Below, in pieces: positions 6,301 through 46,197 of a stretch of DNA of 46,197 nucleotides. The notes beneath the pieces were generated by a model. That model was not told the origin of the DNA, ran no database searches, and saw only the letters and a program-made list of their open reading frames with translations. The stretch covers positions 1 to 46,197 of the IMG/VR virus record IMGVR_UViG_3300037961_004792; one strand, 5' to 3'. Position 1 is the first letter of the stretch. Each line of letters begins with the position of its first letter. The stretch comes from a virus. The translations under genes and the position numbers were made by a program.

Positions 6301-6933
6301 TGACCCTTCTCCAAAAGCAATCGCAGCGTCTTTATCATCACCAAACTCTACAACTTCGCCTCTTTTTTTAGCTTCATTGTATGCTTGCTTCCAAGGTTTA
6401 TCCATGTATTTAGTAACCCATGTTCCGTCTTTGTCTTGAAATAATGTTGGGAATCCAACCCAAGAGCCATTAGAAAGCTGTTCTGCTCTCATTAAATGCG
6501 TGGAATGTCTAGTGTCTCCGTCTTCGTCTTGATAAGTGTATTGTCCTACTCTTGCTTTAGCTTGTGGTGGGTCAATCTTTATGGGATTTAAGTCCAATGA
6601 AGAACTTTCTTCTTCCGAAATTAAGGGTGATACCGTAGGAGTATTGCCGACTTGATTTTTTTTTTCAGGGGGCTGGTTTTCAATTTGTGGTGGTTGGTCT
6701 ACATTTTTTAGTAATGAGGCATATATCATTTGAATTTTTGCATCGTCAGCAGCTCCTGAACCAGACTGCATATGAATTGACGGCAATAAAGCTTTAAAGT
6801 TTTTGTTGTTTACAAAATTAGCTGCATCACTCTTTGACAAAACTTTTCCGTTTTGAGCGTACATATCTATTAAAAACTTTTCAGCTTTTGCCTTATCTAT
6901 AAGTGGGTCCTGTACTGGTGTGTTCACAATCAT
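304..6933 (-). CDS. Giant internal virion (DNA ejection) protein, 2209 aa
   Basis: This is the last and largest gene of the virion block, placed after two smaller internal proteins as in the T7 14-15-16 order, which suggests a DNA-ejection or internal core protein. Around residues 130-215 is a short module I recognise from other phage structural proteins: STHLM, then GFPTLF, then GEGSWKKLY. Most of the chain is charged and helical. Membrane-compatible, Gly/Ala-rich stretches lie near residues 705-735, 1628-1655 and 1928-1948, which fits a protein that enters the host envelope. I see no lytic transglycosylase signature and no DxDxD RNA-polymerase motif, although crAss-like phages carry giant virion RNA polymerases in a similar place. 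The role is inferred from size, order and composition. Confidence 0.7.
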   Translation of the reverse strand: MIVNTPVQDPLIDKAKAEKFLIDMYAQNGKVLSKSDAANFVNNKNFKALLPSIHMQSGSGAADDAKIQMIYASLLKNVDQPPQIENQPPEKKNQVGNTPTVSPLISEEESSSLDLNPIKIDPPQAKARVGQYTYQDEDGDTRHSTHLMRAEQLSNGSWVGFPTLFQDKDGTWVTKYMDKPWKQAYNEAKKRGEVVEFGDDKDAAIAFGEGSWKKLYKASNPNPLFQGEMLFRRSVYGLNNSFISMGEEEAAQVINQRFQAYGIKATPMGIGSDQIMVSMQGEGQPIQLQLYTPSYQSRLAGLNALDPQSKPVETLMKEALVEFQDLLIKGEKVMSENLVSTFSLTPEDRLPDFIARQTANFTQPKDVNTIFLSSLFGRSQDYYFDNGTFNISKYEEDLSNAMVHALNMDGEHDFYSKMEIHLNAFEQFRESPGSDKKYLYEQINQKLGKNVQPLNDRDFQLLLDKDYEIFDIKTTSDLQQKINHLRRDLQAKKITAANSITHLLRATNRYNLFQNATPELMNEFKKMGFNEANVPTDGIKINGRASSYAELLNNIYDYDFVMDVRAGRQTLEVGNGEDYGNLGYYIDQAKGLVAKQESFRFDYPLGESIGAGIENVENWAQSVVFGGQEILVNANYIVYDSLVGMGLKPEQASVLVYGLGGLPGLEHVNPLNPEVFKDIKDRYLPQFEGDIMDSGSVGEFFAKTAEPVGGSVATTALFVLNPKLGMIAVGVSGYGGSLRNYDDLKHGVLEKKKRGEYISPEEQAILDMSGAEKRMLSLLKSGQEVAVTSLFTYKYFKGLMGNKTAMDKMSKTELNKFVTQYTKSFNNGIIKTLNRTFGVDKELLKNELKEEGLIAFNNYMIDVVSGVKEYNQQELNKIMLETGIITTISSYGSGVAIRQLQNPKIRKAGDNIILQNLEVLDGQSGNIHFDHMTKSAEIKLFEERVLKDKRIKDKEKYLQNSLEYQTLLSGLSDIEFQIGKHEQRRAELLLEMTDGDKILFMKNFQRMVALNDVRSNQDASPSARDAAETEMEKLRAETNDMLSKYPSELGIYFAEEVVQNQYKDKAAKQILEEQTNEAKEKGLENFEVKVDYESEEVMIRAGELYLEDIRKGKREANDINSFGTFGVEPIVYNVVSPSERNEFDLNSSINQARQRQVTIGELPLQESPDETKGPIPISQEDDNNKRNASIFNRLENLNKDGNLKNRMGDQFDIFIEYFNDLKDGRVPKFGKVEAMLDAQDIIGKITALAGDSKLKINVGGKSLAALVINFSNYLYASQESYTLDQLLNTIIKDENIRGPLADVVREGLRLSAEAEQLGGLHKKQDKASWIQDYKAWAKDNKHRSKWKHRYKDMGNPNSLENSYEMYLLHMLKRESGELDINGVDLEFIRAKNLILQELDLARKDYESIKGQFSVKKDEYLAKFNTLSTIVNRLELYQANSFADVAKNALPFNLNAIDRIAGRFDGTFDDTKRRMSDYKGNNENQFFYSRGTYTPGFLRNERGIVKNDYLGVSKLEGQVNANNLKDVTRPENLSDELRLDLGMYFDNAYNAYSGVMMDSKAYNNFLILDMVSKSEEFGNLFEDGQVKDMLMIGLQNRLNYFEEQVRDFNRTSIDITSSKGAKLPKLGNLMYGTVGAVALTRFTQPISQFASALAGTSPLIRNDRARNYLRQRSAQFITFTAGYNNGNLSSNFGAMVLDKLGLNSNNGRLSNIYMKSRTGLRNAKRSELSLDLTKNYSPSYYLTAFNLDPNDSKVQKVFKNVLKAGDMAFDKFVNLLASSNETALDLFLANADAAAANTAFEAHYLDYMLSKGEDISDLDAWWQKQNANPNIDAINHADARVSETMRQTSKSGEAGVYMNRNSGTMIDKNVVLTKVLFPFHRFIINAKQDAINAYSILLDPDMPLDQKEMAAARLRGKAAEIITYGGIKNLGNVAYATGLVGVYGLLMGIDDDDIEEWGGVTRFLGENRYGLGLPIIEAAENFDPTNFPEGIPGAESLEAYNQLIGFQNMYTAQDAFGNAISKYELEYENKFSAKKLYSVIESTAKDLISTLQPAPIPDIFEDLIIRELNEGLGTDISEFISADLKKSGTTDGVINMISKNAGYYGIAIESIDGIRRAGQLKDGYLTKSGGAFPDKIGYVTAHNEPMREDLQKATQLLYKLRILAVIAPGPRADIDRYADILERNIDKYFLSSKPDLEYIRLTGNDPRPKK

Positions 6934-18224: not shown

Positions 18225-19610
18225 TTATTGCATCAATAAGAAGTTGTTTACTCCCATTGTACATAAAGCTCTTTCTGATAAGAAATGAACTTCCATGTTA
18301 TCTTTGTCGCTAGTCATAGCTCCACCTGCTGAACCAACTACCCAAGACTTATATTTTCTGTCTTCAGTAGGAGATACTCGGTATCTAACGTGTAAGAATG
18401 GTCTCTTAGCGTTTTCTCCAAGTACTTGGTCATAGATAGTTACTGTACCAGCTGGAACAAGGATTCCATCAACGCCACCGATATTACCTCTAGTAGTAGC
18501 GTCATTTAAGTATTTCCAGTCACTCTTATAGAAATCATATCCAATTCTAAATCCAGAGAAACCTAGATTAAGAGCCATATCTTCGTCATTGTCAAATAGA
18601 CCATAAGAAGATGTAGAAGCTCCTGAATTGTTTTGAGCTGCAAGAACTGTGTCAATCTTGAAAGAAGTGTCTCTGTTTACAAACAGTACATTTTCTTGGA
18701 TTGCTCCTTCTTTATCAAGAACTTTAGCAATGTTCTCTAAGTCAGTTCTATCTCCGATATCACCTGTAGATACATTACCATTATTTTCGATTTCATAGAA
18801 CAAACCTTTAGTACCTTTGTATCCAGCTGTTGCTGCTCCTGAACCAGAAGCTGCAGGCTCGCCTTCTACCATAGACATTTCAAGATAGTCTTCAAATCGA
18901 AGTCTTGTTTCGTGCTCTGACTTCAGATACCATAAGTATCCAGAAGCACCATTTTCTGTTGCTACTTCAACCCAACCTACGTGAGCCATTTCTGAACCAC
19001 TTACTTCATATTTATCTTTGATGATAATTGGGTTGTTTTCTTTAGCCTCGAAATCAGCTTCAAGAGAACCAACCATACCATTAGTTCCTTTTTTAAATTC
19101 AGAACCGTATACGAAGATTGTTACGTTGTCAGAAGCATCAAAAGGACCATTTCCATCAGTACCAGCCTGGTGAAGTAAGTCTTTAGATGCATAAGTTACA
19201 ACATCTACAGCGTTAGCAGCAGAAGCGTCTGTTACTAAACATACAGCTTGAGAACCAGCTTTTGAAACAATGATTGTTTGGTTAGCTCTTAAGTTGTGAC
19301 CTGTAATAGCGATAGTATTTAAATCTGTAATACTACCTGATGCTTGAATGTGTAATCTTCCTTGCTCACTCCACTTAATTAAATCAGAGCTTGAAGGAAT
19401 TTCTGCGCCTACCATTCGTAAGAATGATGCAATTGACCTGTTGCCATATCTTTCAAACTCTTTTTCATACAAATCTGGAAGATATTGTTGCGCAAATGTA
19501 TAGTCGCTGTTAGAGAGGTAGTTAGCATTTCCTAACGACTTCCCTGGTGCAGGTGTCAATGAGGTGCTTCCACCTATCGAACCATTTGCAAAATTAATTG
19601 ATTGTGCCAT
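18225..19610 (-). CDS. Major capsid protein, 461 aa
   Basis: Position (scaffold, capsid, strong terminator) and sequence identify the capsid protein. The N-terminal region contains YLPDLYEKEFERYGNRSI and VGAEIPSSSDLIKWSEQGRL, which I recognise from major capsid proteins of marine flavobacterial and crAss-like phages. The length and alpha/beta composition suit an HK97-type fold with an inserted beta-rich domain around residues 90-160. The C-terminal half contains RVSPTEDRKYKSWVVGSAGG, typical of a P-domain strand. There is no evidence for a protease or a cleaved delta domain; scaffolding is supplied separately. The leader is A/T-rich without a Shine-Dalgarno sequence. Confidence 0.85.
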   Translation of the reverse strand: MAQSINFANGSIGGSTSLTPAPGKSLGNANYLSNSDYTFAQQYLPDLYEKEFERYGNRSIASFLRMVGAEIPSSSDLIKWSEQGRLHIQASGSITDLNTIAITGHNLRANQTIIVSKAGSQAVCLVTDASAANAVDVVTYASKDLLHQAGTDGNGPFDASDNVTIFVYGSEFKKGTNGMVGSLEADFEAKENNPIIIKDKYEVSGSEMAHVGWVEVATENGASGYLWYLKSEHETRLRFEDYLEMSMVEGEPAASGSGAATAGYKGTKGLFYEIENNGNVSTGDIGDRTDLENIAKVLDKEGAIQENVLFVNRDTSFKIDTVLAAQNNSGASTSSYGLFDNDEDMALNLGFSGFRIGYDFYKSDWKYLNDATTRGNIGGVDGILVPAGTVTIYDQVLGENAKRPFLHVRYRVSPTEDRKYKSWVVGSAGGAMTSDKDNMEVHFLSERALCTMGVNNFLLMQ

Positions 19611-20828: not shown

Positions 20829-23282
20829 TTACATTATGTTTTTCTGGGCCATCATTTGCTTAACGGCTTCCATTGGGTTAGCTGGGTTTGGATTTTCTTT
20901 TTCTTCCTCAAACTCCTGTGCTGGTAAATCTTTTTTTCTTTGTTCTATAAGCTTGCTTTGTTGTGAAGCTTGAATTTTTGTTCTTTCGTCTTTTCTATCT
21001 TCCTTAACTGCTTCTCTTGATTTTATAGCGCTAACTTCTGCTGATTTCACTTTACCCTCTAACTCATACTTCATTTGAAGGAGCTTCATATCTATTTCTG
21101 CTTGTTGCTGCATCCTTTGGGATTCAAGCTGTGCTTCCATCTGCATTAGTTGTGATTTTGTTTGTGCTTTCATTTGCTCTTCTTGCATTCTTGATTGAGA
21201 AGCTGCCTGCGAAGACTGTACATTAGATTGTGTTTGCAATTGCATCGCAGTTTTTTGTTTTTCCATATCAAGAACTTCTTTCCTTTGCTTTTTCACTTTC
21301 AATAAAGTGTTTGCAAGGTTTACATTGTTGATAGACCTCACATCAATAGCATCATCTAAGTCTATTGCTTTTGCTTGTAAAGATTGTTGAATGTTTTGCT
21401 CAAGCATTTGTTTTTCTTCTTCATCTGGCTCTAAATCTATATAAATACCAAAATCGTGTAAGTGAAGTTCTAAAATATCCTGCACAATTGTAAGGTTGTT
21501 TTTACCTATCATTCTAGCAAAGCTTTCTGCAAATGTTGAATATTGAAGAATATCTGATATTCTACATGACAGCGCCTCACAAAGACGTCTTGTTAAGAAT
21601 ATACCAGATTGGATTATATGTCTCGTAGCAGTGTTACTATTCAGGGCAGCTAATTTTTGTATTCCAACCAATGAATACTTATCAGGCTGACTTCCATCTC
21701 TAGCTTCATTTATGCCTGTTACAGCTCTAATCATATTAAGTTGATAATTGTACATATTTATTAAGCTGCTAATTTTAGCATTTGAACCAGAGCTTGTTAA
21801 CTCTTGTATTGGTATTCTAGCGTTATTAAACTCTCCATCTTCCGTGTAACTTCTACCTACAACACTACCAGTTTGGAAGTACATTGATAAAGCTTCAGAC
21901 GGATTATATGACGCACCATTACCTAAATCAACACTATTAAGACCGTCTGCATCAATAAAAACACCATCTGGTATCATTTTTTGAACTACTTGTTGTAGCT
22001 TCAAGTGTACCAACTGTATTTGGTCAGCAAAAGGTATCATTCTTTTAACTAAAGAATCAATCTTACCTTTTGACATTTTAATAGCATTTACAATATATGG
22101 TGGTATAGTTTTTTGAAAAGAAGATTTTGGTCTAACCATGTTTTGCATCAACTCCCACTTTAGAATCGTATTTGTTCCTAAAACCATAACTCCTTCATAC
22201 CAAACATCTATTCTTCTAGAAACTCTTTTGAATCTTGCTTTTTCTGATTGAGGAGGGTTGAAAGAATCATCTTTTCTTAATGCTTTTTCTGCTCCGTTTG
22301 TAGTTTCTTTTATTTTATAAACTACTTCTGAATCTGTTTTGTAACAGAAATACAGTAAAGAAACATTGGATTTATCTAATCCACTTTGTGCCTGTAAATT
22401 AATTGTGCTTTTATAGCCATCATATCTTGATGCTGTTTTTGCAATAGATTCCAACTCTTCTTGTGTAAGAGCAGGATTAATTTTTTTTAATTCTGTTACA
22501 TGTACGGATTTAACTTCTCCAAAATAATAACAGTCTCCAAAGTTTGGGTCTTGAGTTGGAGAGTATACAAAATTTACAGGGTCTACATACTCCACTCTAA
22601 CACCATCATGAACATCAAAAGAATGCTTGACAACTGACATACCTAAAACAACATTGTCTTCGTCAACACGTCTTTTTATTTCATCATATCTATTGTGCTC
22701 TAACAGTGTTTGTAAAGCAACTTCTTGAGCAACCTCCACTCCTTGCTTATACCTTAACTTCATATAAAGGTCAAGCTCTTCATTTGTTTGAGGTAGTTGA
22801 CTCTCATCAAAATTAAAAGCATCGACTCCTGTGTTTTCTTTAATAATTTTCAATGGCTCATATGCTATCATATCTGCTTCCATCTCTTGTCTAAAAAGAG
22901 CTCTGTCCTCACTTGATAACTCGTCTATAGCCTCAACATTTATATCAAACATTCTGTTTGATATTCCATTAACAACAATGTCAACAAATTTGGGTATAAT
23001 TGGAACAGGTGTCCAATCTAAATTCAAATAAGATAAATCACCATTAACCGATAATTCATTTTTGTATTTTTCTATAGGCTGTTCACCACGCGCATATAAT
23101 CTTCTAGATAAGAACTCTGACCTTATCTCTCCGTATAAGGAACTTCCATAATCTCTAGAAAACCACTCTGATTCTATCGCCCTTCCAACTCTTAATCCAT
23201 ATTCCATCGAAGATTTTTCTTCGTCTGGTGAAAATTGGTTAGGGAAACCTGCGTATGAGCCTAACTTAGGTTTATTTATCAT
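20829..23282 (-). CDS. Portal protein, 817 aa
   Basis: The gene follows the large terminase by two bases, the usual portal position. The segment LYARGEQPIEKYKNEL, then DLSYLNLDWTPVPIIPKFVD, is characteristic of portal proteins of crAss-like and marine Bacteroidota podoviruses. The chain is long for a portal (T7 gp8 is about 536). The C-terminal 170 residues are Gln/Met/Lys-rich (MQLQTQSNVQSS, MEAQLESQRMQQQ) and form a probable coiled-coil barrel inside the capsid. A dodecamer would form the DNA channel at one capsid vertex and hold the terminase, then the adaptor rings encoded downstream. Confidence 0.85.
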   Translation of the reverse strand: MINKPKLGSYAGFPNQFSPDEEKSSMEYGLRVGRAIESEWFSRDYGSSLYGEIRSEFLSRRLYARGEQPIEKYKNELSVNGDLSYLNLDWTPVPIIPKFVDIVVNGISNRMFDINVEAIDELSSEDRALFRQEMEADMIAYEPLKIIKENTGVDAFNFDESQLPQTNEELDLYMKLRYKQGVEVAQEVALQTLLEHNRYDEIKRRVDEDNVVLGMSVVKHSFDVHDGVRVEYVDPVNFVYSPTQDPNFGDCYYFGEVKSVHVTELKKINPALTQEELESIAKTASRYDGYKSTINLQAQSGLDKSNVSLLYFCYKTDSEVVYKIKETTNGAEKALRKDDSFNPPQSEKARFKRVSRRIDVWYEGVMVLGTNTILKWELMQNMVRPKSSFQKTIPPYIVNAIKMSKGKIDSLVKRMIPFADQIQLVHLKLQQVVQKMIPDGVFIDADGLNSVDLGNGASYNPSEALSMYFQTGSVVGRSYTEDGEFNNARIPIQELTSSGSNAKISSLINMYNYQLNMIRAVTGINEARDGSQPDKYSLVGIQKLAALNSNTATRHIIQSGIFLTRRLCEALSCRISDILQYSTFAESFARMIGKNNLTIVQDILELHLHDFGIYIDLEPDEEEKQMLEQNIQQSLQAKAIDLDDAIDVRSINNVNLANTLLKVKKQRKEVLDMEKQKTAMQLQTQSNVQSSQAASQSRMQEEQMKAQTKSQLMQMEAQLESQRMQQQAEIDMKLLQMKYELEGKVKSAEVSAIKSREAVKEDRKDERTKIQASQQSKLIEQRKKDLPAQEFEEEKENPNPANPMEAVKQMMAQKNIM

Positions 23283-23284
23283 AA

Positions 23285-25516
23285 TTATTTAATAATTTCG
23301 CTAACAAATCCTTTGTTACTGTATTTTGCAAAGTTAATATTTATTTGATTATGTTTTCTAAAGGTTGTCTTTTGCTTACTCTGATTACCCATGATTGCTA
23401 ACCCTGAACTAATAGAGGCATCATACCTTGTTCTATTGTTAATATCATAGTTAGACCAATCTAGTAAAGTCCTGTTAAAAAACATGTTCCCACAAGAACC
23501 ATAATCAATGTTCTGTTCATCAGAAATCACGCCAACATAGTTTTCAATATAACCTTCAATTGCTTCAGCGTGTACTGAAATTACAGCAGATGATGAGGGT
23601 ATACCTCCCAACTCTTTTTCAGATTTTGATAATACATTTTTATGTTTATCAGGTCTATTCATTGAAAAACCTCTATATCCTCTTTCTTTTAAATAATATA
23701 GTAATCTTGGCTTATTGTTTTCTGCAAGTATAGGCATTCCATAAAACACTATAGCCATCAAAACATCTTCATAAAAAAGTTCTGCTGTAGGTGGTCTGGA
23801 TATGTATTCTAGAAAAAATGAGTTTGTAGGGCCATCATCCATATGAAACTTTGTCATACCATGTAATGCTCCTTTAGAACCTCCGCCACCTACTACACCT
23901 GATATGTCATATGAGTCACATCCAAATGTACCCATATGTGCATTACCAGGATATTTATGAAACCCTCTTACCTCTACGTTGTTCATTATTTTTCCGTCAG
24001 GTATCCACGTAATTCTAAACCTCCCTTTATTGTCTGGGGCCCAAACAACCTCTGTATCTCTTTCTCCGTTTTTCCAATAGAAATTACCTCTATATATACT
24101 TGATTTTATAACAAACGAATCATTATAATCTATTTGCTCATATATCTTAGTAAGATTGAATATTGTGTTTTTTGATTCATCTCTAAAAGCATGAGATTCT
24201 GTTCTTGGGAACTGTCTATAAAACTCATTAAGAGCATCTTGGTCGTTTTTAAAACCATCTACTTCATTCTCCCAATGCTCTATAACCCCTGTTTCAATTA
24301 TATCTTTATGTGGTCCAAAAGTTTCTTTTGTTGGTGTTTCAAATACTGGCATTCCATATTCATCTATAAACCCTTCGTAGTTCCATTCCATAGGAATAAA
24401 TAAAGAATAAAGTCCAGAATTAGTTTGTCCATTTTTGTTTCTTTCAGTTACATTAGAATCCTCATATAACTTTTTAAAATTATCCCCACCCTTATCTAGT
24501 GCATTTGAAGTTGAGCCCATCATACATTTCCCAACTACCCTTGAACCTAATCTTAAAGTTGTTTTTGTTACCCTCCAGTTGTTTAATATGTTATCTGGTC
24601 TTTCCCATTTACCTGATTCATCATGAACAAGTAACTTTAATTTTTCTCCATCATAAGAGTTGTCTCCAGTATTTTTCCAATCTATAGTTGTATCTAATCC
24701 TGTAAGTTCTTCAGGTTTATCACTGGAAGAGATGGTAAGTTTTCTCCTGGTAAGTTTAGAGGCTGGTACTCTATAGGCAAGTTCTGTTTTTGGTCTATCC
24801 ATTCCATCTTGAATTGGCTTGAAGAAGAATGGGTAGTTGACGGATATAGGTACAACTTTATCTGTGAACATTTTTTTAGCATCGGCACCAGATTTGGACA
24901 ATATCCCAAAGCGTGAGTCTGATGATATTGTTGCAAGGTTAACCGTTTCCCCAGACGCCATGAAAGAAAATCCTGAACGTCTGTTTTTGAGATAGCACAT
25001 TCCATAACACCTGTTGTCTGCTTTACAAGCTTCCCAGAAAATATAGAATAATCTATTGGCTTCTCTAAACTCTGGGAACCCCACATCAATCTTACTCCAC
25101 TGCAAGTACATGTAATGAGTGCCAGTAATATAAGTAGGCTTGCTTTTATTATAAAACCAAAACCCTTGTTCTCTTTTAACAAATTCGTTTTCAATGTAAT
25201 CAATGTATTTATCTTTAAAATCTTGAGGATAATCTCTCCAATCAAAAATAGTTTGAATTCTTTTCAAATCTTTTGGATATGCAGTTACCTCCCATTTATT
25301 ATTATCAAACTTATGAACTTTATCTGGTTTTTTAGGTAAAGCTATTTTTAAGTTCTGTATTTGATACACTTCTCCTATTTGCCCTGTTTTTGAAATCACC
25401 ACAACATCATGCTGTTTGTCATAGCCATATGACCAACCTTTTTGTTTGTTTTTTTGTTGTATAATCTTTTTGTCAATATGATTTACAACAGCATAAAGTG
25501 TTTGTTGGTGTTTCAT
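23285..25516 (-). CDS. terL: Terminase large subunit, 743 aa
   Basis: This is the packaging ATPase and nuclease. Residues 177-185 (KNRRSGFSF) form a deviant Walker A in which Lys177 comes first, as in lambda gpA (KSARVGYSK). LLVHDESG supplies Walker B with D299 and catalytic E300; KCMMGSTSN is a probable coupling motif. In the C-terminal half, GCDSYD with D534 is the likely first metal ligand of the RNase H-fold nuclease. About 130 extra N-terminal residues precede the ATPase domain (LYAVVNHIDKKIIQQKNKQK). Its start overlaps the stop of the 93-residue upstream gene by four bases (ATGA), suggesting coupled synthesis with a small terminase. Confidence 0.9.
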   Translation of the reverse strand: MKHQQTLYAVVNHIDKKIIQQKNKQKGWSYGYDKQHDVVVISKTGQIGEVYQIQNLKIALPKKPDKVHKFDNNKWEVTAYPKDLKRIQTIFDWRDYPQDFKDKYIDYIENEFVKREQGFWFYNKSKPTYITGTHYMYLQWSKIDVGFPEFREANRLFYIFWEACKADNRCYGMCYLKNRRSGFSFMASGETVNLATISSDSRFGILSKSGADAKKMFTDKVVPISVNYPFFFKPIQDGMDRPKTELAYRVPASKLTRRKLTISSSDKPEELTGLDTTIDWKNTGDNSYDGEKLKLLVHDESGKWERPDNILNNWRVTKTTLRLGSRVVGKCMMGSTSNALDKGGDNFKKLYEDSNVTERNKNGQTNSGLYSLFIPMEWNYEGFIDEYGMPVFETPTKETFGPHKDIIETGVIEHWENEVDGFKNDQDALNEFYRQFPRTESHAFRDESKNTIFNLTKIYEQIDYNDSFVIKSSIYRGNFYWKNGERDTEVVWAPDNKGRFRITWIPDGKIMNNVEVRGFHKYPGNAHMGTFGCDSYDISGVVGGGGSKGALHGMTKFHMDDGPTNSFFLEYISRPPTAELFYEDVLMAIVFYGMPILAENNKPRLLYYLKERGYRGFSMNRPDKHKNVLSKSEKELGGIPSSSAVISVHAEAIEGYIENYVGVISDEQNIDYGSCGNMFFNRTLLDWSNYDINNRTRYDASISSGLAIMGNQSKQKTTFRKHNQININFAKYSNKGFVSEIIK

Positions 25517-25794
25517 TTAGAACGTCTTTCTGCAAAACCAGAAAAAGCTTTTTTCTCTTCTTCTTTTGGTTTTCCGTCTATCATTGCTTTTTCTTGCTCT
25601 ATCCTATTTAGTATTTCAAAAGCATCAAAGATTGCTAGTTTTTTTGTTGCAGCTGCGTTTTTTAATCTATCGGCTGCTAGTTCATCATCTGGGTCTGGTT
25701 TTATTATTTCTTCTTCTGCTACTTTAATTAGCTCTTTTACAGCTTCATGACCAGCTTTAATGATTCTTTCTTTGATTTGATTTACATTTTTCAT
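25513..25794 (-). CDS. Putative small terminase-like protein, 93 aa
   Basis: A short, highly charged helical protein (IKERIIKAGHEAVKELIKVA, then DDELAADRLKNAAATKKLAI) whose stop overlaps the terL start by ATGA. Position and helix-rich build suit the oligomerisation part of a small terminase, which recognises viral DNA and regulates the ATPase. However, no N-terminal helix-turn-helix is evident, so DNA recognition may lie elsewhere. It could also be an unrelated chaperone of the terminase. Confidence 0.45.
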   Translation of the reverse strand: MKNVNQIKERIIKAGHEAVKELIKVAEEEIIKPDPDDELAADRLKNAAATKKLAIFDAFEILNRIEQEKAMIDGKPKEEEKKAFSGFAERRSK

Positions 25795-25806: not shown

Positions 25807-26367
25807 TTAATTTAAAATAGTACATATATCGTTAGCCCTCATTCTATAAAGTTTCTCATCATTAATAACGAACTCATACTCGCTGTCTTTAGTGAAGTTT
25901 ACTTTATTACCCTCTTCGACACCAAGTTTGTCTAATATCTTATTACCATAAACAAGAACTCCTGTATTTAACTCTTCTCCCTCTTCATGTAAATACTTGT
26001 TTTCTAGCTCTATAGGTTTTATAAAACAATAATCCCCTACCGAGTTCCATCTTTCTCCATCATGAAAAAGATAAAACTGATAAGGGTCAATAAAATATAT
26101 ATTGTCTTTGAAATAGTTTGGAGACTTTCTTGGCCTTCCTTTCATATCGTAATAAATACGAAAGACATTGTGATGCACTATCAAAGTGTCACCAACCTTT
26201 ATATCTCCTTTATATTTTGAAGGGACATGTAAAACTTCCGCAAACCGATTTACATGTTTATGGTTTTCAACCGTAGAATTGACTATAATTTCTTTACCTG
26301 CTAAGGTAATTTTGTTTTTATAATGCTCTCCTTTCGGTTTAATAAGAAAGAAAAAAGGAGATTTCAT
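25807..26367 (-). CDS. GroES-like protein with two apparent repeats, 186 aa
   Basis: Both halves read like the GroES barrel. The first has FFFLIKP at 5-11, a region KEIIVNSTV (25-33) that could be a mobile loop, and IKVGDTLIVHH at 56-66. The second has YCFIKPIEL at 113-121, GVLVYGN at 136-142, GVEEGNKVNFTK at 149-160 and EKLYRMRANDICTI at 171-184, which parallels the GroES ending (EEVLIMSESDILAIV). The protein is about twice the length of GroES. It lies in the packaging operon, two genes before terL, far from the groES at 44532. It may be a capsid-assembly co-chaperonin in the sense of T4 gp31, or only share the fold. It overlaps its upstream neighbour by one base (TAATG). Confidence 0.55.
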   Translation of the reverse strand: MKSPFFFLIKPKGEHYKNKITLAGKEIIVNSTVENHKHVNRFAEVLHVPSKYKGDIKVGDTLIVHHNVFRIYYDMKGRPRKSPNYFKDNIYFIDPYQFYLFHDGERWNSVGDYCFIKPIELENKYLHEEGEELNTGVLVYGNKILDKLGVEEGNKVNFTKDSEYEFVINDEKLYRMRANDICTILN

Positions 26368-33701: not shown

Positions 33702-34415
33702 TTAGTTAAAATATGCAATTCCTGAAACAGGAAGTGCAAATTTTATTGTAACGTTGTTTGAGTCGTCATACTCTACTTTTCCAATAACTTTATTATCATT
33801 AGCATCAACAACAGTGACACTAGGTTTTTTGTTTAAGCCATGTTCCATTGACCATGTTGCTGATGGAGTTGGTTGTGGCACTGCTTTGTGCTTATCAAAA
33901 TCATCAACCCTAAACACCAACAAAGATAATAAATAATCCTTTTCAACTTCTAGACTACCACTACCCCCTTTATAAGTAAGGTTTATATCATAAAGACTTG
34001 TGTCAGAAGAATTTTGCGTAGAGGAATTCCAAACATAAACACCAAAATTAGAAGTGTCGTCTGCTTGTTTAATTAAAACCATACTTGTTTCAATTGCTTC
34101 ATAAAAATCGCTAACGTCTATATTTTGGTCTGCTAAAGTATTCCTGTGTATTTTTATATTCGACAAAGCTGAAAAAGCTACAGTAGCTCCTTGGTCTACA
34201 GCAGATTCAAAATATCCATAAGTAATGGTTTTTCCAGATGGCCTAACATAAGTGTATCTAGAGCCATGCCCTTGTACTACTCCGCTTTTATTTAGAAACC
34301 CAAATAAATCAGATACCTTGTAATTCTTAGTGATAGTACCAGCAGAGTCTGTACCTATAACTTTATCATTAGTAGTTATATCGGTATCAAGTGCATAAGT
34401 GCTTATTCTGGCCAT
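33702..34415 (-). CDS. Short tail fibre/adhesin protein, 237 aa
   Basis: The first 35 residues (MARISTYALDTDITTNDKVI, then TKNYKVSDL) are closely similar to the start of the 483-residue fibre at 39839..41290, so both probably bind the same virion socket. The C-terminal 55 residues (WSMEHGLNKKPSVTVVD, ending in SGIAYFN) match a widespread fibre-tip motif. The middle is beta-rich. It is the first fibre gene after the lysis group, with a TATCTTTG promoter-like element 16 bases upstream. Confidence 0.75.
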   Translation of the reverse strand: MARISTYALDTDITTNDKVIGTDSAGTITKNYKVSDLFGFLNKSGVVQGHGSRYTYVRPSGKTITYGYFESAVDQGATVAFSALSNIKIHRNTLADQNIDVSDFYEAIETSMVLIKQADDTSNFGVYVWNSSTQNSSDTSLYDINLTYKGGSGSLEVEKDYLLSLLVFRVDDFDKHKAVPQPTPSATWSMEHGLNKKPSVTVVDANDNKVIGKVEYDDSNNVTIKFALPVSGIAYFN

Positions 34416-36718: not shown

Positions 36719-37060
36719 TTAAAATTTGTTTCCGATGATTTCTTCTATTTCTTCAAGTATTTTTTGTTCACAATCATCTGGCAGCTTGAGGGATATTCCG
36801 CTCTCAACTCTCATGATTTCATCGCCATTATGGTACAAAATAATTGTAGGTAAATATTTTATTTTCTCTTTTTCAAAAGTCTCTTTCTTATCAGTAATAT
36901 AAAAGGTATAAACATTATGGTCTCTGAATTTTTTTAAAGAAATTTCTGAATCTTTTGTGAATGGGGCACTAAATTGAACTACTGATATATCATCTTTAAA
37001 GTTCTGGCTATAGCCTGTAGCTAATGTCAAAAAAAAGACAATATATTTTAAAGCTTTCAT
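36719..37060 (-). CDS. Exported thioredoxin-fold protein lacking the CxxC motif, 113 aa
   Basis: Residues 1-19 (MKALKYIVFFLTLATGYSQ) form a flavobacterial-style signal peptide. The mature part follows a thioredoxin pattern: strand VVQFSAPFT, then YTFYITDK, then the cis-proline strand YLPTIILYHNGDEI with P71. At the usual WCxxC site the sequence is SAPFTKDS, so it has no redox cysteines. It may bind a periplasmic partner rather than catalyse disulphide exchange. The stop lies next to the outer-membrane-like gene and the start overlaps the upstream gene by four bases. Confidence 0.6.
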   Translation of the reverse strand: MKALKYIVFFLTLATGYSQNFKDDISVVQFSAPFTKDSEISLKKFRDHNVYTFYITDKKETFEKEKIKYLPTIILYHNGDEIMRVESGISLKLPDDCEQKILEEIEEIIGNKF

Positions 37061-38993: not shown

Positions 38994-39839
38994 TTAATTG
39001 TCTTTACAAAATCTAATTGGTACATAAACGTCATTAGTGCCTGGTGAAAATTCCATAGGGGCATATTTCATATACCTTTTTGATGCTTGATTACTAAAAT
39101 TTACATAATAATATACAGTACGGTTTTGTGTACCAGCATTAACTTTAAGAACATTATTGTCATTTGCAAACATCCAAAAATTTGCAGCTTGTTGGTCATT
39201 GAATTGACCAGGTCCTACCCAAATAAAACCACCATTATTCGTATCCTGTCCTCTTCCAAAAACCTGAATATTTAATCCACTTTGATTAGCGTTAGTATGG
39301 TCTGACACGGTAAAATTCACATTCCCACTAGGGTGTGGACTTGAAGTACTTGTGTCATATCCATTAGCTGATGTTAATGCACTGGAATGAATATTAAACC
39401 TTCTCGGATTTATTTTATCAGTACTACTTAGACAATTATCGCTAAAAACAGATTGCCAGTCGGTTTCTGTTGGTTTTCTGAATCCTGATGGAGGGTTTAC
39501 TACTTGAGCAGCCCACTCATTATAAAAAAGACCCATGTGTGAATTGCTTGAGTCGAAATTGAAATATGCAGCAGCATATTCACTTGCATTATTTTTTGCA
39601 ATTGCTTGTGAAGCAGTTTGTACAATTGGTATTGTAACTGCAGAACCGCTGACTGTTCCTGATGTTTCTGATGAATTTACTGTTGTCCATATTCGTGCTG
39701 AACAAGGAATTATTACTGAATTTGTTGGAAGGTTAGGCCACAACAATGTAGACCCTTTATATATTTTTACCACATTAGAAGTGCCTAGTTTTATTTTTCC
39801 TTCAGCTGGTATTGAGCTTCCAATTCTAAAATCAGCCAT
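38994..39839 (-). CDS. Tail adhesin with FISUMP-like/lectin-like segment, 281 aa
   Basis: The first 36 residues (FRIGSSIPAEGKIKLG, VVKIYKG, LLWPN) are a short attachment module used by phage surface proteins. Around residues 105-130, YNEWAAQVVNPPSGFRKPTE followed by TDWQSVF resembles the FISUMP signature (cPsGwrvPTdaEW) of C-type-lectin-like proteins common in Bacteroidota. The rest is beta-rich with many Asn and Ser and ends PIRFCKDN. It is likely a receptor-binding accessory. Its start overlaps the stop of the 483-residue fibre by one base. Confidence 0.6.
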   Translation of the reverse strand: MADFRIGSSIPAEGKIKLGTSNVVKIYKGSTLLWPNLPTNSVIIPCSARIWTTVNSSETSGTVSGSAVTIPIVQTASQAIAKNNASEYAAAYFNFDSSNSHMGLFYNEWAAQVVNPPSGFRKPTETDWQSVFSDNCLSSTDKINPRRFNIHSSALTSANGYDTSTSSPHPSGNVNFTVSDHTNANQSGLNIQVFGRGQDTNNGGFIWVGPGQFNDQQAANFWMFANDNNVLKVNAGTQNRTVYYYVNFSNQASKRYMKYAPMEFSPGTNDVYVPIRFCKDN

Positions 39840-41290
39840 TATACAATAATATAAAGTTTAGATGCGTCTTTAGTGAGAGCATCATATTGTGCTTGTGTTA
39901 CCGTTTCAATACCTGAAACTGCAGTTTGTCCAGCTCCAGCTGTTGCTGCGATATAACCTTGACCTGTTACAAAATCATAAATTTGGTCTCCTGTAGCTAA
40001 AGCTGTTCCATTATCTGCTGGCGCACCTGTTACAATGCTTAATGCTGGTGCTGGTGAGGCTTGTGATACTGTAATTTGACCTGTAGTAGCAGAGGTTACG
40101 CCTGTAACTGTACCACCTGATGTATTTGTTGGAACTTGCCATGTACCATCTCCTCTTAAAAAAGTTGTGTTTGAACCACCAGCAGGTACGTGACCAACGT
40201 TTGATGTTCCATTGTATGCCATTGATTTAACAGAAACGCTGTTATTTGATGTTGTTACATCAATTGGAGTTCCTGAAGATGTTCCAGGTGCAACTTCATC
40301 AACTGCTGTAATTGGGGAACTCGGCAGGGAAGTCAATTTTACTTTATCAGCTGCACTCATAACACCTGCTGATGAAGCGGTGGCTACATTTATAGTTCCG
40401 TTTGCACCATCTGATGAATTAACTACAACATTTGAGGAGTTATGGGTTATTGATATGTTAGTAGTAACATTGCTTACTTTACTATTAAAAGTACTCCAGT
40501 CTGTTGAGGATAAAAATCCATTAGAACTTGCTGAAGCTTGTGTAATACCTAAAGTAAAGCTGCTAGCGTTACTAGCTCCACCTGACAGGGGAGCATTAGT
40601 TGTAATGCTCACTGTACCAGACCCCGAACCAGCACTTCCGTTTGCTGCAGCCGTGACTCTTCCTAACGCATCTACTGTAATGTTTGCATTTGTATAACTT
40701 CCTGCTGTTACACCTGAATTTTGTAGTGATATTACAGGTGTTGCTCCTCCTGAAGAAAGGACTGGAGCTGTTGCTGTAACAGCTGTAACGGCACTTGTAA
40801 CAAAGTTTTGGTTTCCAATATATGTAAATACATCTCCACCAGTTACAAGCCCTGTGTTTCCTGATGCTACACTACCTGCAACCACAGTGATTATTGGAGC
40901 TGTAGTTGTTTGTGCGACTGTTAATTTGTTTGTGTCTGCAGAAGTTACTGATGTAACAGTTCCTGTTCCACCACTACCACCACTACCAGATGACGCAATA
41001 GTTATAGAGTTTGTGCTTGCGTCTGTTAAAAGAGTGACGTTAGCTCCTGCGACAAGTGTTAATGCAGTATTTGGGTCAGCTGCATCAACTGTACTTTGAC
41101 CAGAAACTACTATACTACCAAACCCATCAAAAGACCCACTTGAAGAAAGGCTTGATGAAAAATAAGAGTCTAGTGCGCTTATTCTATAGTTTTTAGTAGC
41201 ATTATCCGCACCAGTTGCACCATCACTTCCAATAACAATATCTTCTGGATTAATAGTGCCGTCAGTTTGATATGTATGTATTCTTGCCAT
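39839..41290 (-). CDS. Tail fibre protein, 483 aa
   Basis: The N-terminus (MARIHTYQTDGTINPEDIVI, then TKNYRISAL) matches that of the short fibre at 33702..34415. A Gly/Ser/Thr/Ala-rich repeat body follows, with typical fibre phrases (GFLSSTDWSTFNSK, HVPAGGSNTTFLRGDGTWQV) and the common ending VTQAQYDALTKDASKLYIIV. There is no chaperone domain or enzyme motif. It is apparently an alternative or additional fibre, in a second locus separated from the main array by the lysis group. Confidence 0.8.
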   Translation of the reverse strand: MARIHTYQTDGTINPEDIVIGSDGATGADNATKNYRISALDSYFSSSLSSSGSFDGFGSIVVSGQSTVDAADPNTALTLVAGANVTLLTDASTNSITIASSGSGGSGGTGTVTSVTSADTNKLTVAQTTTAPIITVVAGSVASGNTGLVTGGDVFTYIGNQNFVTSAVTAVTATAPVLSSGGATPVISLQNSGVTAGSYTNANITVDALGRVTAAANGSAGSGSGTVSITTNAPLSGGASNASSFTLGITQASASSNGFLSSTDWSTFNSKVSNVTTNISITHNSSNVVVNSSDGANGTINVATASSAGVMSAADKVKLTSLPSSPITAVDEVAPGTSSGTPIDVTTSNNSVSVKSMAYNGTSNVGHVPAGGSNTTFLRGDGTWQVPTNTSGGTVTGVTSATTGQITVSQASPAPALSIVTGAPADNGTALATGDQIYDFVTGQGYIAATAGAGQTAVSGIETVTQAQYDALTKDASKLYIIV

Positions 41291-42237: not shown

Positions 42238-42408
42238 TTATTTTTTCTTTTTTTTAGCTCCTTTAGCGTAATTAGGGTCTTTACAATACTTACTTGCAGC
42301 CATATTAGCATATGCTGATGGATAGGTATCAAAAGTTCTTTTTGCCCATGCTATTCCAGCTGCGCAAATTTTATTACCCTTTTTTCTTTTTTTAAGCTTA
42401 CTTGCCAT
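42238..42408 (-). CDS. Small basic protein, KICAAGIAWAKRTF family, 56 aa
   Basis: The core KICAAGIAWAKRTFDTYPSA, then YANMAASKYCKDPNYAKG, is a strongly conserved short phage family that I recognise. Two cysteines (Cys14 and Cys42) are within it and both ends are lysine-rich. It overlaps the 291-residue gene by 11 bases. It is a probable nucleic-acid-binding or virion-packaged protein with no known function. An in-frame A AAA AAG heptamer lies near its end. Confidence 0.72.
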   Translation of the reverse strand: MASKLKKRKKGNKICAAGIAWAKRTFDTYPSAYANMAASKYCKDPNYAKGAKKKKK

Positions 42409-43341: not shown

Positions 43342-43827
43342 ATGCAAGTCAAATATTATAAAAGAGGAAAAAGTAAAAAGATTAAAAGACAGCCTAGGTC
43401 TCGTTCTTATAATTTTTTAAAATACTATAGAGTTGTTAGGTATTATATAAAAAGAAAATACAATATAACTTTAATGGAGTTGGATATGCTTTTATATCTA
43501 TACGATATGCCTTATTTCAAAAAAGATGACTTTAATTATTACGGAAACACCATGTCTTGGGATAAAAAGCGTTTTTATGATATGATTAAAAAGGGTTTGA
43601 TAAAAGAGTGGAGGCCTGGAAAAGAAAAGTATGCTTTGTCAAAAATGTTTGAATTAACACATTTGGGTAAAACCATATGTTTGATAACATATAAAAAACT
43701 TTTAGGTGAAGAAAAGATATCAGAAGAAGCTCGCTCTAATCCTGTGTTTAAGAAAGAATCTTACATGGATAAGGTTTATAAGAATGTAATAGAAAAAATG
43801 AACTCTAGACAAGCTTCTGATAATTAA
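43342..43827 (+). CDS. Winged-helix-like DNA-binding protein, 161 aa
   Basis: The N-terminal 40 residues are very basic (YYKRGKSKKIKRQPRSRSYN). Residues 41-120 (ITLMELDMLLYLYDMPYFKK, then KKRFYDMIKKGLIKEWRPGK and ALSKMFELTHLGK) follow the MarR-type helix-turn-helix and wing pattern. It is the only complete plus-strand gene in the window. Its 3' end overlaps the 248-residue minus-strand gene by 23 bases in convergent orientation. It may control the divergent late transcription unit. This is inference from fold and position. Confidence 0.6.
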   Translation: MQVKYYKRGKSKKIKRQPRSRSYNFLKYYRVVRYYIKRKYNITLMELDMLLYLYDMPYFKKDDFNYYGNTMSWDKKRFYDMIKKGLIKEWRPGKEKYALSKMFELTHLGKTICLITYKKLLGEEKISEEARSNPVFKKESYMDKVYKNVIEKMNSRQASDN

Positions 43828-44551
43828 CTATTGCTTGTTTTAATACGGAGTAATCTCTGATTGATGTTATTTCTTTTAGTTTTCTCATTTTAAGTTTACT
43901 TCCGCCTTCAGTTAAAACATCTATAGCTTCTATTGCTTTTGCTATCATGTTTTCTTTTCTTATCTCTTTGTTTGCTGATGCAATAGACTTTAGTATATCT
44001 TCCTTAAAATACCACCTAACTAAATGCCTGGTCGTTTCCAAAACTTCTGCAACCTTTGAAATTGTAATCTTTTCTTTTTTAAACCAAAGTTCTTCAATAA
44101 CACTGCTGATTCTATCTTCTGATGGTTTTTCTTTTGCAGATATTAACTGTCCAACAATTTTCATTTTAGTTTTTCTGTCAAACATTTTTGATGGATTGAA
44201 TATTATTTTTCTATATCTAGCACAATATGGCTTTTTTTTGATACGGTGTACTCTTTCAACCATATCTTCTACTCTTGAATTACCATAGGTTCTTATAATG
44301 TGTCCACTTCCTCTGTCGGACAAAACAGAGAAAAATCGTTTCATTTTTGATAATTTGAATTCTGGGTTTAGCCAAATAAACTTTTCAGCTATATATTCCA
44401 GCTCTGCAAATGAATTTATCTTTCTTGTGGTTCTGTAAAGGCTATAGTACTCTACACCATCTGGAAAAAACAGATAGTCCGCCCCTTTAAATATAAAAGA
44501 GGACTCCATGATGATTCTATGTCTTTCGTAATCAAATAGGGGTATTAGCAT
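43805..44551 (-). CDS. Helix-turn-helix protein of unknown function, 248 aa
   Basis: Residues 162-185 (ITISKVAEVLETTRHLVRWY) form a clear helix-turn-helix. A second possible one is at 219-243 (SKLKMRKLKEITSIRDYS, then LKQAI). The N-terminal 120 residues are aromatic and basic with HRIKKKPYCARYRKIIF. The start at 44551 overlaps groES by 20 bases; ATG 44509 (MESSFIFKG) is an alternative. It could be a late transcription regulator or an initiator-like protein. It follows the chaperonin genes in the same direction. Confidence 0.55.
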   Translation of the reverse strand: MLIPLFDYERHRIIMESSFIFKGADYLFFPDGVEYYSLYRTTRKINSFAELEYIAEKFIWLNPEFKLSKMKRFFSVLSDRGSGHIIRTYGNSRVEDMVERVHRIKKKPYCARYRKIIFNPSKMFDRKTKMKIVGQLISAKEKPSEDRISSVIEELWFKKEKITISKVAEVLETTRHLVRWYFKEDILKSIASANKEIRKENMIAKAIEAIDVLTEGGSKLKMRKLKEITSIRDYSVLKQAIVNYQKLV

Positions 44552-44810
44552 CGTCTAGCATCACTACCACATCTCTTTCTCGTATGGCCTTGTATTTTTC
44601 TCCTTTGATTCTGATATCACTACCAGCTACTTTATCAAAGTAAACAACCATCCCTTCTTTCACTTCTTTTACAAGTTCTCCTATTGTAATGACTTTTCCA
44701 ATGATGTATCTAACGTTTAAATCAGATTTATCGCTAATAATTAAACCTAATTCGTTTTTTTGGTATACCTCACCGTCTTCAACAATGATAAAATCTCCTA
44801 CTGCTTTCAT
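44532..44810 (-). CDS. groES: Co-chaperonin GroES, 92 aa
   Basis: The sequence fits the GroES barrel: FIIVEDGEV at 7-15, a mobile loop with G22-L23-I24-I25 in place of the GIVL of bacterial GroES, then IIGKVITIG at 36-44, VKEGMVVYFDKVAGSDIRI at 50-68 and YKAIRERDVVVML at 73-85. A heptameric lid for the chaperonin encoded upstream is expected. The order is groEL, a 71-residue gene, groES, the reverse of the usual bacterial groES-groEL. Its start overlaps the 71-residue gene by four bases (ATGA). Confidence 0.8.
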   Translation of the reverse strand: MKAVGDFIIVEDGEVYQKNELGLIISDKSDLNVRYIIGKVITIGELVKEVKEGMVVYFDKVAGSDIRIKGEKYKAIRERDVVVMLDDANTPI

Positions 44811-45022
44811 TGAGTTTGTGGTAATTTAGGTGCTCTTTTATAATTAACGTTCTTTTTTTTCTCATCATTGATATTCCACTTCGTTATTACGTCACCCTCT
44901 AAGTCAATCACCGTATACCCATGTCTTGTTAAAAGCTCAATAGAACTGTGAAGTTTTCTTACTTCTTCCCTATAGTCCTCGAAAATTTGATTTGAAATTG
45001 CTTCGTGTGTATGTTCACTCAT
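44807..45022 (-). CDS. Small protein between groEL and groES, 71 aa
   Basis: The product is helical with a charged N-terminal part (NQIFEDYREEVRKLHSSIEL) and a short beta segment (YTVIDLEGDVITKWNI), then a basic Pro-containing tail. It has no known domain. It lies five bases after the groEL stop and overlaps the groES start, so it is co-translated with the chaperonin pair. A role as a chaperonin adaptor is possible but unsupported. Confidence 0.55.
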   Translation of the reverse strand: MSEHTHEAISNQIFEDYREEVRKLHSSIELLTRHGYTVIDLEGDVITKWNINDEKKKNVNYKRAPKLPQTQ

Positions 45023-45027
45023 AATAT

Positions 45028-46197
45028 TTAATTTTTGTTTGTTTTTATTCGTTTATTTGAAATTACGCATGATGTTGTTAGAATTATACCAGCAACTGAT
45101 GCTGAATTCATAACTGCGTTCTTGGTAACCTTAAAAGGGTCAATAATCCCCATTTTAAACATATTACCAAATTTTTTGTTCTTTACATCAAACCCCATGT
45201 CTTTGTTTGAGTTTTTTACTTTCTCAAGTAGTTCAATGTAATCTTGTCCAGAGTTCTCAATGATGCGCTGAAACACAACAGGCAAACAACTCCAAACGAC
45301 CCCATATCCTATTAAAAAAGAATCAGAACGGCCTCGCGGAGGTTTTTTCGCGATTTTTTTGTTATATGCGTTCATTAGTGCAATCCCTCCACCAGCAACT
45401 ATACCCTGTTCAAGCGCAGCTTTAGTTGCATGGATGGAGTCATCTACTCTATCTTTCTTTTCTTTTAGCTCTACTTCAGAATTACCAGCAAGCTTGATGG
45501 TTGCTACACCACCTGCTAATTTTGATAATCTATCCTGTAAATGCCATTTAATAGATTTATTCTTTGTTTTTCTTATTTCTGTGTTGAGGTATTCAATGAT
45601 TTCGTCTTTTTGTGGGTTGACTTGCTCATCAAACACCAAAATCGTTTCATTACTGTCTGAAATCATTTGCTTACATGTACCAAGATACGATGCGTCTATA
45701 TTTTGCATGGAATCACCAGACATCTCTGAAATAATCTTAGCACCTGTCATAAGTGCTAAATCTTCCAATAATTCAAACCTACCGATACCAATACCTTCAG
45801 GTTGGAAGAAATTAGCTGTTAAATTCTTTTTATTTATGTTTTGAGCTATAAATAGCTTTACCCTATCATCTAAATCAGCTATAATTAGAAGTGGGCGCTT
45901 TTGTTTGATTGATTGTTCAAATGCAAAGTGTAGTCTTTCATGCATGTCAATCTTAGTATCACTAATAACAATAAGTGGATTTTGAAACTCTACTGTCTTT
46001 TTTCTAAGATTATTTACACTAAATGGTGTTCCGTACCCTCTTTTGATTCTTGTACCATTAGTTATTTCAGTATAATCTTCGCCTGTTGCAGAGTCGTCCA
46101 TTGTTACAACTCCGTTCTTCCCAACTTTATTGTATGCGTCAGCAATCATGTTTCCTAAGTACTGGTCTCCATTTGCTGAAATAGTAGCAACCTCCAC
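45028..46197 (-). CDS. groEL: Chaperonin GroEL, 5' end outside window
   Basis: The visible 389 residues match GroEL from about E. coli residue 148 on (VATISANGDQYLG, then KVGKNGVVTMDD). They cover the apical domain, the second intermediate part and the C-terminal equatorial domain. RVDDSIHATKAALEQGIVAG keeps the catalytic aspartate (residue 253 of the fragment, equal to D398), and FKMGIIDPFKVTKNAVMNSA is the equatorial helix. The apical segment APGFGDRRK is replaced by QPEGIGIGRFELLED, and the protein ends KRIKTNKN without the GGM tail. It is therefore divergent but apparently functional. The 5' end lies outside the right edge, so the first codon shown (GTG) is not the true start. Confidence 0.88.
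   Translation of the reverse strand: MEVATISANGDQYLGNMIADAYNKVGKNGVVTMDDSATGEDYTEITNGTRIKRGYGTPFSVNNLRKKTVEFQNPLIVISDTKIDMHERLHFAFEQSIKQKRPLLIIADLDDRVKLFIAQNINKKNLTANFFQPEGIGIGRFELLEDLALMTGAKIISEMSGDSMQNIDASYLGTCKQMISDSNETILVFDEQVNPQKDEIIEYLNTEIRKTKNKSIKWHLQDRLSKLAGGVATIKLAGNSEVELKEKKDRVDDSIHATKAALEQGIVAGGGIALMNAYNKKIAKKPPRGRSDSFLIGYGVVWSCLPVVFQRIIENSGQDYIELLEKVKNSNKDMGFDVKNKKFGNMFKMGIIDPFKVTKNAVMNSASVAGIILTTSCVISNKRIKTNKN

Follow-up and report, generated by a model that had tools for sequence, protein, structure and literature searches.

Is a GroEL-GroES pair in a phage genome the whole of its chaperonin, and for which proteins would a phage use one? The question is raised by an IMG/VR virus record (IMGVR_UViG_3300037961_004792), of which positions 1-46,197 were analyzed; this whole stretch of 46,197 nucleotides (nt) is referred to as the window. 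It carries groEL, a small middle gene and groES and, elsewhere on the same strand, a gene for a longer GroES-like protein. We consider it probable that these genes specify a dedicated group I chaperonin for the folding of virion proteins, composed of the phage's own GroEL, a small GroES that lacks its roof like T4 gp31, and a second co-chaperonin resembling Cpn20. The computed basis of this proposal consists of intact genes, ATPase residues, a missing roof, a remodelled groove, a predicted Cpn20-like fold and the joint occurrence of the genes. The possible novelty lies in the combination of GroEL, small GroES and tandem lid candidate, not in the pair. The genes concerned are the following.

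45028..46197, minus strand: groEL, C-terminal 389 of 532 residues, running off the contig end; the whole gene is found in contig L002 (L002:737-2335).
44807..45022, minus strand: accessory gene for a 71-amino-acid (aa) protein, modelled as a helix and a hairpin, from a family of small phage genes that occur in shifting genomic positions.
44532..44810, minus strand: groES, 92 aa, Pfam Cpn10, with the roof hairpin missing and the mobile-loop GLII kept.
25807..26367, minus strand: gene for a 186-aa protein, most likely a tandem double-Cpn10 (Cpn20-like) protein, PHROG 13932 'co-chaperonin GroES' (E 2.7e-21), two genes upstream of that for the terminase large subunit (TerL).

The first three genes form one tight operon (44532-46197, minus strand), as a previous sequence-only reading of the window had described. 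The spacing between groEL and the 71-aa gene is 5 nt, while the 71-aa gene and groES overlap by 4 nt. That reading had raised the possibility that the 5' end of groEL is a frameshifted remnant. In L002 (IMG/VR 3300030395_001615), which is 99.9% identical to the window over 9,167 nt, groEL is an unbroken open reading frame (ORF) of 532 aa starting from ATG, and the gene is likewise intact in L003-L008. The window groEL is shortened by the contig end only.

By its full-length sequence, its ATPase motifs and its match to Pfam Cpn60 (PF00118; E=1.5e-35, well above the cut-off), the window GroEL is classed as a group I chaperonin (GroEL/Cpn60), and it also matches PHROG 5725 'chaperonin groEL' (E=3.8e-86). 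The hydrophobic apical groove typical of bacterial GroELs was left out of this assignment. In the alignment, all ATPase and catalytic positions tested are kept, namely D52, G86-T90 including D87 (GDGTT), D398, G414/G415 and D495. The apical groove is remodelled in the window clade (L234H, L259K, V263A/T, V264Q and F204S) at positions that are invariant in the bacterial sequences tabulated, and the hydrophobic groove that takes up clients and GroES in the bacterial members is not found. The viral clade shows no conservation at the inter-ring positions K105, A109, E434, R452, E461, S463 and V464. Both the GGM tail and the APGFGDRRK segment had been reported as lacking; the tail is indeed absent, but the segment has diverged and was not deleted, as VKAPGFGDRRK aligns with FQPEGIGIGRF. 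Taken together, the residues suggest that this GroEL is a working ATPase with an altered client and lid surface, whose binding specificity has probably changed.

The small GroES scores 37.9 bits against PF00166 (Cpn10; cut-off 21.1, E=1.9e-9) and retains the hydrophobic tripeptide of the mobile loop, with GLII aligning with GIVL of E. coli. The roof β-hairpin is missing, leaving ∼8-9 residues fewer than in E. coli or in solved GroES structures. Most viral GroES sequences have 21 residues between the aligned landmarks, and the roofless form is general throughout the viral groEL-groES clade. Alignment with gp31 and GroES places T4 gp31 beside it as a phage co-chaperonin that also lacks the roof hairpin, and loss of the roof is therefore no bar to co-chaperonin function. 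In gp31, the absence of roof loops creates a wider opening, which is thought to be helpful for folding the ∼56-kDa capsid protein gp23 (PMC6318259). The partner of gp31 is the host GroEL, whereas the window phage supplies a GroEL itself and, in addition to the small GroES, encodes a tandem co-chaperonin.

The 186-aa GroES-like gene (25807-26367, minus strand) had been overlooked in the sequence-only reading. Relatives of it are present in at least 584 viral contigs, and in 79 of the 80 loci inspected among these it lies shortly 5' of the TerL gene. An AlphaFold2 model of the protein, generated from an alignment of 52 relatives, was confident (predicted local distance difference test, pLDDT, 89.6; predicted template modelling score, pTM, 0.81). 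Its top match in the PDB was Cpn20 of Chlamydomonas (7ekq_R), aligned along the whole length (206 alignment columns for a query of 186 aa) with a probability of 1.00, an E value of 4.8e-5 and template modelling (TM) scores of 0.60/0.58. The matches at ranks 2-32 (31 rows) were all GroES/Cpn10 chains, and in a viral structure library the model matched the 'Chaperonin cpn10' of phage phi18:3 over 200 columns. The C-terminal half was additionally recognized by a GroES profile (hhalign 88.9%, E 2.4e-6). The protein is thus most likely two Cpn10 folds in tandem, as predicted from the model and, for the C-terminal half, also by profile.

In domain 1 of the tandem protein, the loop is 30 residues long and includes a hydrophobic stretch. 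In domain 2, the loop of the window lineage mostly comprises 11-13 residues and lacks the hydrophobic tripeptide. The protein is predicted to be Cpn20-like with a capping role, yet it was not assigned to the Cpn20 type because domain 2 lacks the usual mobile loop in the window lineage. Chloroplasts offer the nearest parallel, as they too possess a tandem double-Cpn10 protein (Cpn20) beside a single Cpn10, and rings that mix Cpn10 with Cpn20 are favoured there as the native form (PMC5780408). The two differ in setting (plastid versus phage), share 16% identity, and the second domain of the phage protein lacks the usual mobile loop in the window lineage. Several existing records label the gene 'cpn10' or 'co-chaperonin GroES', and no paper describing a tandem GroES in phages was found in the literature searched, which did not cover the viral chaperonin survey of Marine et al. 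(2017).

Of 23 longer records that contain a groEL of this kind, 22 also have the tandem gene, the exception being a 30-kb fragment, and groEL was found in 16 of 20 records with the tandem gene, the four exceptions being fragments of 12-39 kb. Cultured phages with a related TerL fall into three states. All three components (GroEL, small GroES and tandem protein) are present in the elemo phages, ctfjg026, phi38:1 and Panino, while the Pachyviridae phi13:2, phi19:3, phi18:3 and phi46:3 (L358-L361; complete genomes) possess the small GroES and the tandem protein without GroEL, and Gundel_1 has none of the three. None of these cultured phages has one of the two co-chaperonins, small GroES or tandem protein, without the other. 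The C-terminal domain of the Pachyviridae tandem protein has a long loop with a hydrophobic SLIYIP and scores above the Pfam Cpn10 cut-off, and the single GroES of phi13:2 has a canonical GIII loop. The presence of both co-chaperonin genes without GroEL suggests that the Pachyviridae provide two phage lids for the host GroEL. The short loop of the window lineage, as against the long loop of the Pachyviridae, would be consistent with co-evolution of lid and barrel.

A complete pair had been expected to be much less usual in phages than either gene by itself. This expectation did not hold, as a scan of viral contigs with the GroEL alignment returned at least 591 contigs with relatives, and cultured phages also carry both genes. 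In the best 80 of these at least 591 contigs, where gene order was read, groES lies directly 3' of groEL in 79 loci and the two genes overlap in 76. The order groEL then groES, the reverse of the bacterial one, was correctly recognized in the window and also occurs in the cultured elemo phages and ctfjg026. Both genes are annotated in elemo, ctfjg026, immuto and phi38:1; the order is groES-groEL in immuto and groES-90 aa-groEL in phi38:1. It has been described that some phages carry both GroEL and GroES (PMC7185714), and both genes have been reported for phage Panino (PMC11590407). The groEL-groES pair in phages is therefore already known and is common in aquatic phages, and the pair itself is ordinary.

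One of the close counterparts, ctfjg026 (Caudoviricetes sp., MW202828), shares with the window the gene order, a convergent gene of the 161-aa type and a tandem GroES gene beside TerL, with identities of 36% for GroEL, 41% for GroES and 63% for TerL. It differs in lacking both the middle gene and the 248-aa gene found next to groES in the window, and its own tandem gene is annotated 'hypothetical protein'. The elemo phages of Flavobacterium (Elemovirus; 68 records among the matches listed, with groEL then groES in the one record opened) have a 'cpn10' near TerL in addition to the pair and thus represent the same three components in culture, although GroEL identity is ∼39% and the middle gene is lacking. 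Cellulophaga phage phi38:1 (Pervagoviridae) likewise encodes cpn10 and GroEL with a small gene between them and a tandem GroES gene beside TerL. Here the order is the bacterial one, from groES to groEL, and the searches that were run did not match the intervening 90-aa gene with the 71-aa family. More distant systems include the single-ring phage chaperonins EL gp146, OBP gp246 and AR9 gp228, which are also GroELs encoded by phages and are reported to work without a co-chaperonin (PMC9598537); the window phage, in contrast, has groES directly downstream of groEL. The GroEL of the Bacillus jumbo phage PBS1, among the matches listed, is 25% identical to that of the window.

The remaining genes of the window are viral and include those for terminase, portal, virion and tail proteins, in agreement with the sequence-only reading. 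Those that bear on the chaperonin, by position or as a putative client, are listed below.

18225..19610, minus strand: virion structural protein of 461 aa, PHROG 13704; putative major capsid protein and putative client of the chaperonin.
20829..23282, minus strand: portal protein.
23285..25516, minus strand: TerL, 63% identical to that of ctfjg026.
25513..25794, minus strand: 93-aa gene that separates the tandem co-chaperonin gene from that for TerL, 57% identical to its ctfjg026 counterpart.
43342..43827, plus strand: 161-aa gene, convergent with the chaperonin operon, PHROG 17028 (no function given).
43805..44551, minus strand: 248-aa protein, no assigned function, with a 20-nt overlap with groES.

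The arrangement in which the 248-aa gene adjoins groES is kept in close relatives. In ctfjg026, a homologue of the 161-aa protein (37% identical) follows groES and is annotated 'repressor protein'.

How would such a chaperonin operate? We propose that a virion protein is shut into the ATP-driven phage GroEL by a lid without a roof, and that the small GroES, as in the case of T4 gp31, would give an open-topped and probably roomier cage. The most likely client would be the 461-aa protein, a candidate for the major capsid protein, or else a different virion protein of medium size. The tandem co-chaperonin could join the small GroES in a mixed ring, act as a separate lid, or serve as an assembly factor of the same fold. 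From the results above we infer that the tandem protein is a lid, alone or in a mixed ring, that this lid fits the phage GroEL, and what the client is. A role in folding virion proteins, as already envisaged in the sequence-only reading, is plausible. The cage formed by GroEL and GroES holds about 60 kDa, and the 2209-aa protein that had been put forward as a client is therefore unlikely to be enclosed. This protein (window 304-6933, minus strand), previously termed an 'ejection protein', had no PHROG match at E 0.001.

Several observations weigh against the proposal of a dedicated three-part chaperonin. The N-terminal half of the tandem protein did not match the GroES profile (hhalign 9.7%) and resembles Cpn10 by fold only; for this half, the double-domain assignment therefore rests on the fold. 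Judging from its short C-domain loop, the tandem protein of the window lineage may not bind GroEL. Co-occurrence of the genes partly reflects shared ancestry, the client is a candidate only, and no biochemistry on any member of the window clade was found in the accessible literature.

A more specific form of the proposal, which we regard as possible but speculative, is a mixed ring of tandem and single Cpn10 subunits, for example three doubles and one single giving seven domains. Such a ring would cover a virion client with a lid that is asymmetric, has no roof and evolved independently of the chloroplast Cpn20/Cpn10 lids, and the groEL-less Pachyviridae would place the same lid on the host GroEL.

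It is also conceivable, although we think it rather unlikely, that the tandem protein acts in packaging or head morphogenesis, e.g., as a terminase or portal accessory, and has only borrowed the GroES fold, and that the chaperonin uses the small roofless GroES only. The location of the tandem gene near TerL and away from groEL in 79 of 80 loci would fit such a factor, as would the short mobile loop of its C-terminal domain in the GroEL-bearing lineages. However, the tandem gene occurs together with the small GroES and both are absent in Gundel_1, the protein matches the co-chaperonin Cpn20 along its whole length, and the groEL-less Pachyviridae keep the long SLIYIP loop and pass the Pfam Cpn10 cut-off.

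Less probable still is that the phage chaperonin, dedicated to virion proteins in our proposal, instead backs up the folding of proteins in the infected host in general, be it for stress relief or host takeover. A full GroEL/GroES set with an intact ATPase site is what such a role would call for, but the replacement of the hydrophobic apical positions in the window clade argues against broad client binding. Moreover, the tandem gene keeps its place in the virion gene cluster in phages that lack groEL as well.

The sequence-only reading had included the 71-aa gene as an extra part of the pair, and a third chaperonin component (an adaptor or assembly factor) would be in keeping with its position. 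The gene separates groEL from groES in six contigs of the window's close clade and, to the extent that the sequences cover the junction, in three contigs of a different GroEL clade (L110-L112, with only the groES side covered in L112). Its purifying selection (ratio of nonsynonymous to synonymous divergence, dN/dS, 0.12) would also be compatible with this. Against it, the gene is absent from the groEL-groES operon of L006-L008, and most of the at least 132 family members in viral contigs are located away from chaperonins, in stretches without groEL or groES, e.g., adjoining replication-type genes. Other, unrelated ORFs occupy the same junction in L093, L096 and phi38:1. The AlphaFold model of the protein (pLDDT 76), a 27-residue helix followed by a short hairpin, had no PDB match below E 4.7, and neither a PHROG family nor a match among cultured phages was found. 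We therefore consider a third component very unlikely; the 71-aa gene is a passenger or accessory phage gene at an insertion-prone junction and not a component of the chaperonin.

Between L002 and L003, the synonymous divergence (dS) of the 71-aa gene is 2.17, compared to 0.23-0.52 for the flanking genes, and the L003 protein is 86% identical to that of L004, while other L003 genes are 61-78% identical to those of L004. Because of this excess in dS and because the L003 allele is nearer to that of L004, the comparison indicates allele exchange by recombination under purifying selection. Fast evolution under positive selection was ruled out, since the dN/dS of 0.12 at a dS of 2.17 reflects an exchanged allele. 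Two further features were noticed in these regions. At the groEL-groES junction of L093 (L093:1912-2319), an ORF of ∼127 aa appears by eye to be 2-oxoglutarate/Fe(II) oxygenase-like (GHGWHKD...H motif), which would be another cargo at this junction. In L005:4545-4990 the 71-aa gene is present twice, one of the copies being shortened to 48 aa, and a small ORF for a possible membrane protein lies between the two.

A GroEL tree of 58 rows was calculated, including 31 cellular GroELs; elemo, L009 and L075 were left out by a motif and length filter. The window GroEL falls within a viral-only clade with long branches, in which five rows of close relatives have a support of 100/100. Support was 97/89 for 20 viral rows including the phages with groEL-groES order, and 100/98 for 22 rows when phi38:1 and immuto were added. 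The GroELs of the Vibrio phages pv27, D506, 2.275.O and VP-1 are found among those of gammaproteobacteria and that of Bacteroides phage DAC23 among Bacteroidales (L267-L270, L272); by their position in the tree, these are captures separate from the window clade. A single clade of all phage GroELs was rejected by the approximately unbiased (AU) test (p-AU 0.0002). In the best tree, the viral clade and Bacteroidota, DAC23 included, are united on the same side of a weakly supported branch (60/74), and a grouping of the viral clade with Bacteroidota in which DAC23, which is nested in Bacteroidota, was placed on the other side gave a p-AU of 0.013. A distant link of the window GroEL clade to Bacteroidota is thus possible but weak. 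The Bacteroidota-type promoter motif TAnnTTTG was found 12 times in L002, where chance alone would give 17 matches, and does not occur in the 370 nt preceding groEL. Although the Vibrio phages and DAC23 illustrate that host GroELs have been captured by other phages, a recent host gene capture, a bacterial contaminant or an assembly chimera has a negligible chance of explaining the window pair, given that L002-L008 keep the operon, that it is conserved in several independent contigs at 69-78% GroEL identity and that its GroEL belongs to a viral-only clade with long branches; the pair is genuinely phage-borne, as the sequence-only reading had presumed.

The host of the phage is likely a Bacteroidota bacterium because the cultured TerL relatives infect Flavobacteriia. 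Three observations concern other parts of the window. A 56-aa basic protein (42238-42408, minus strand; KICAAGIAWAKRTFDTYPSAYANMAASKYC) is identical in L002, L003 and L005 despite a GroEL difference of ∼22%, which amounts to extreme conservation. The proteins encoded at 33702-34415 and 39839-41290 (both minus strand) have similar N-terminal segments of ∼30 residues (MARI.TY...D..IG(T/S)D), as is also the case in L004, L005 and L007; this shared N-terminus may serve to anchor exchangeable fibre parts to the virion. Finally, a 113-aa protein (36719-37060, minus strand) with a signal-peptide-like start, thioredoxin-like by eye, is kept in L004 and L005.

If the tandem protein is indeed a lid, double-Cpn10 lids arose separately in phages and in chloroplasts. 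The cultured elemo phages, phi38:1 and the Pachyviridae are tractable systems in which to study how, and for what reason, a barrel of seven-fold symmetry would take a lid that is mixed or even-numbered. With a roofless lid, an altered groove and relatives that possess both lids but no groEL, it becomes testable whether phage lids, like gp31, adapt a host chaperonin to the folding of the capsid.

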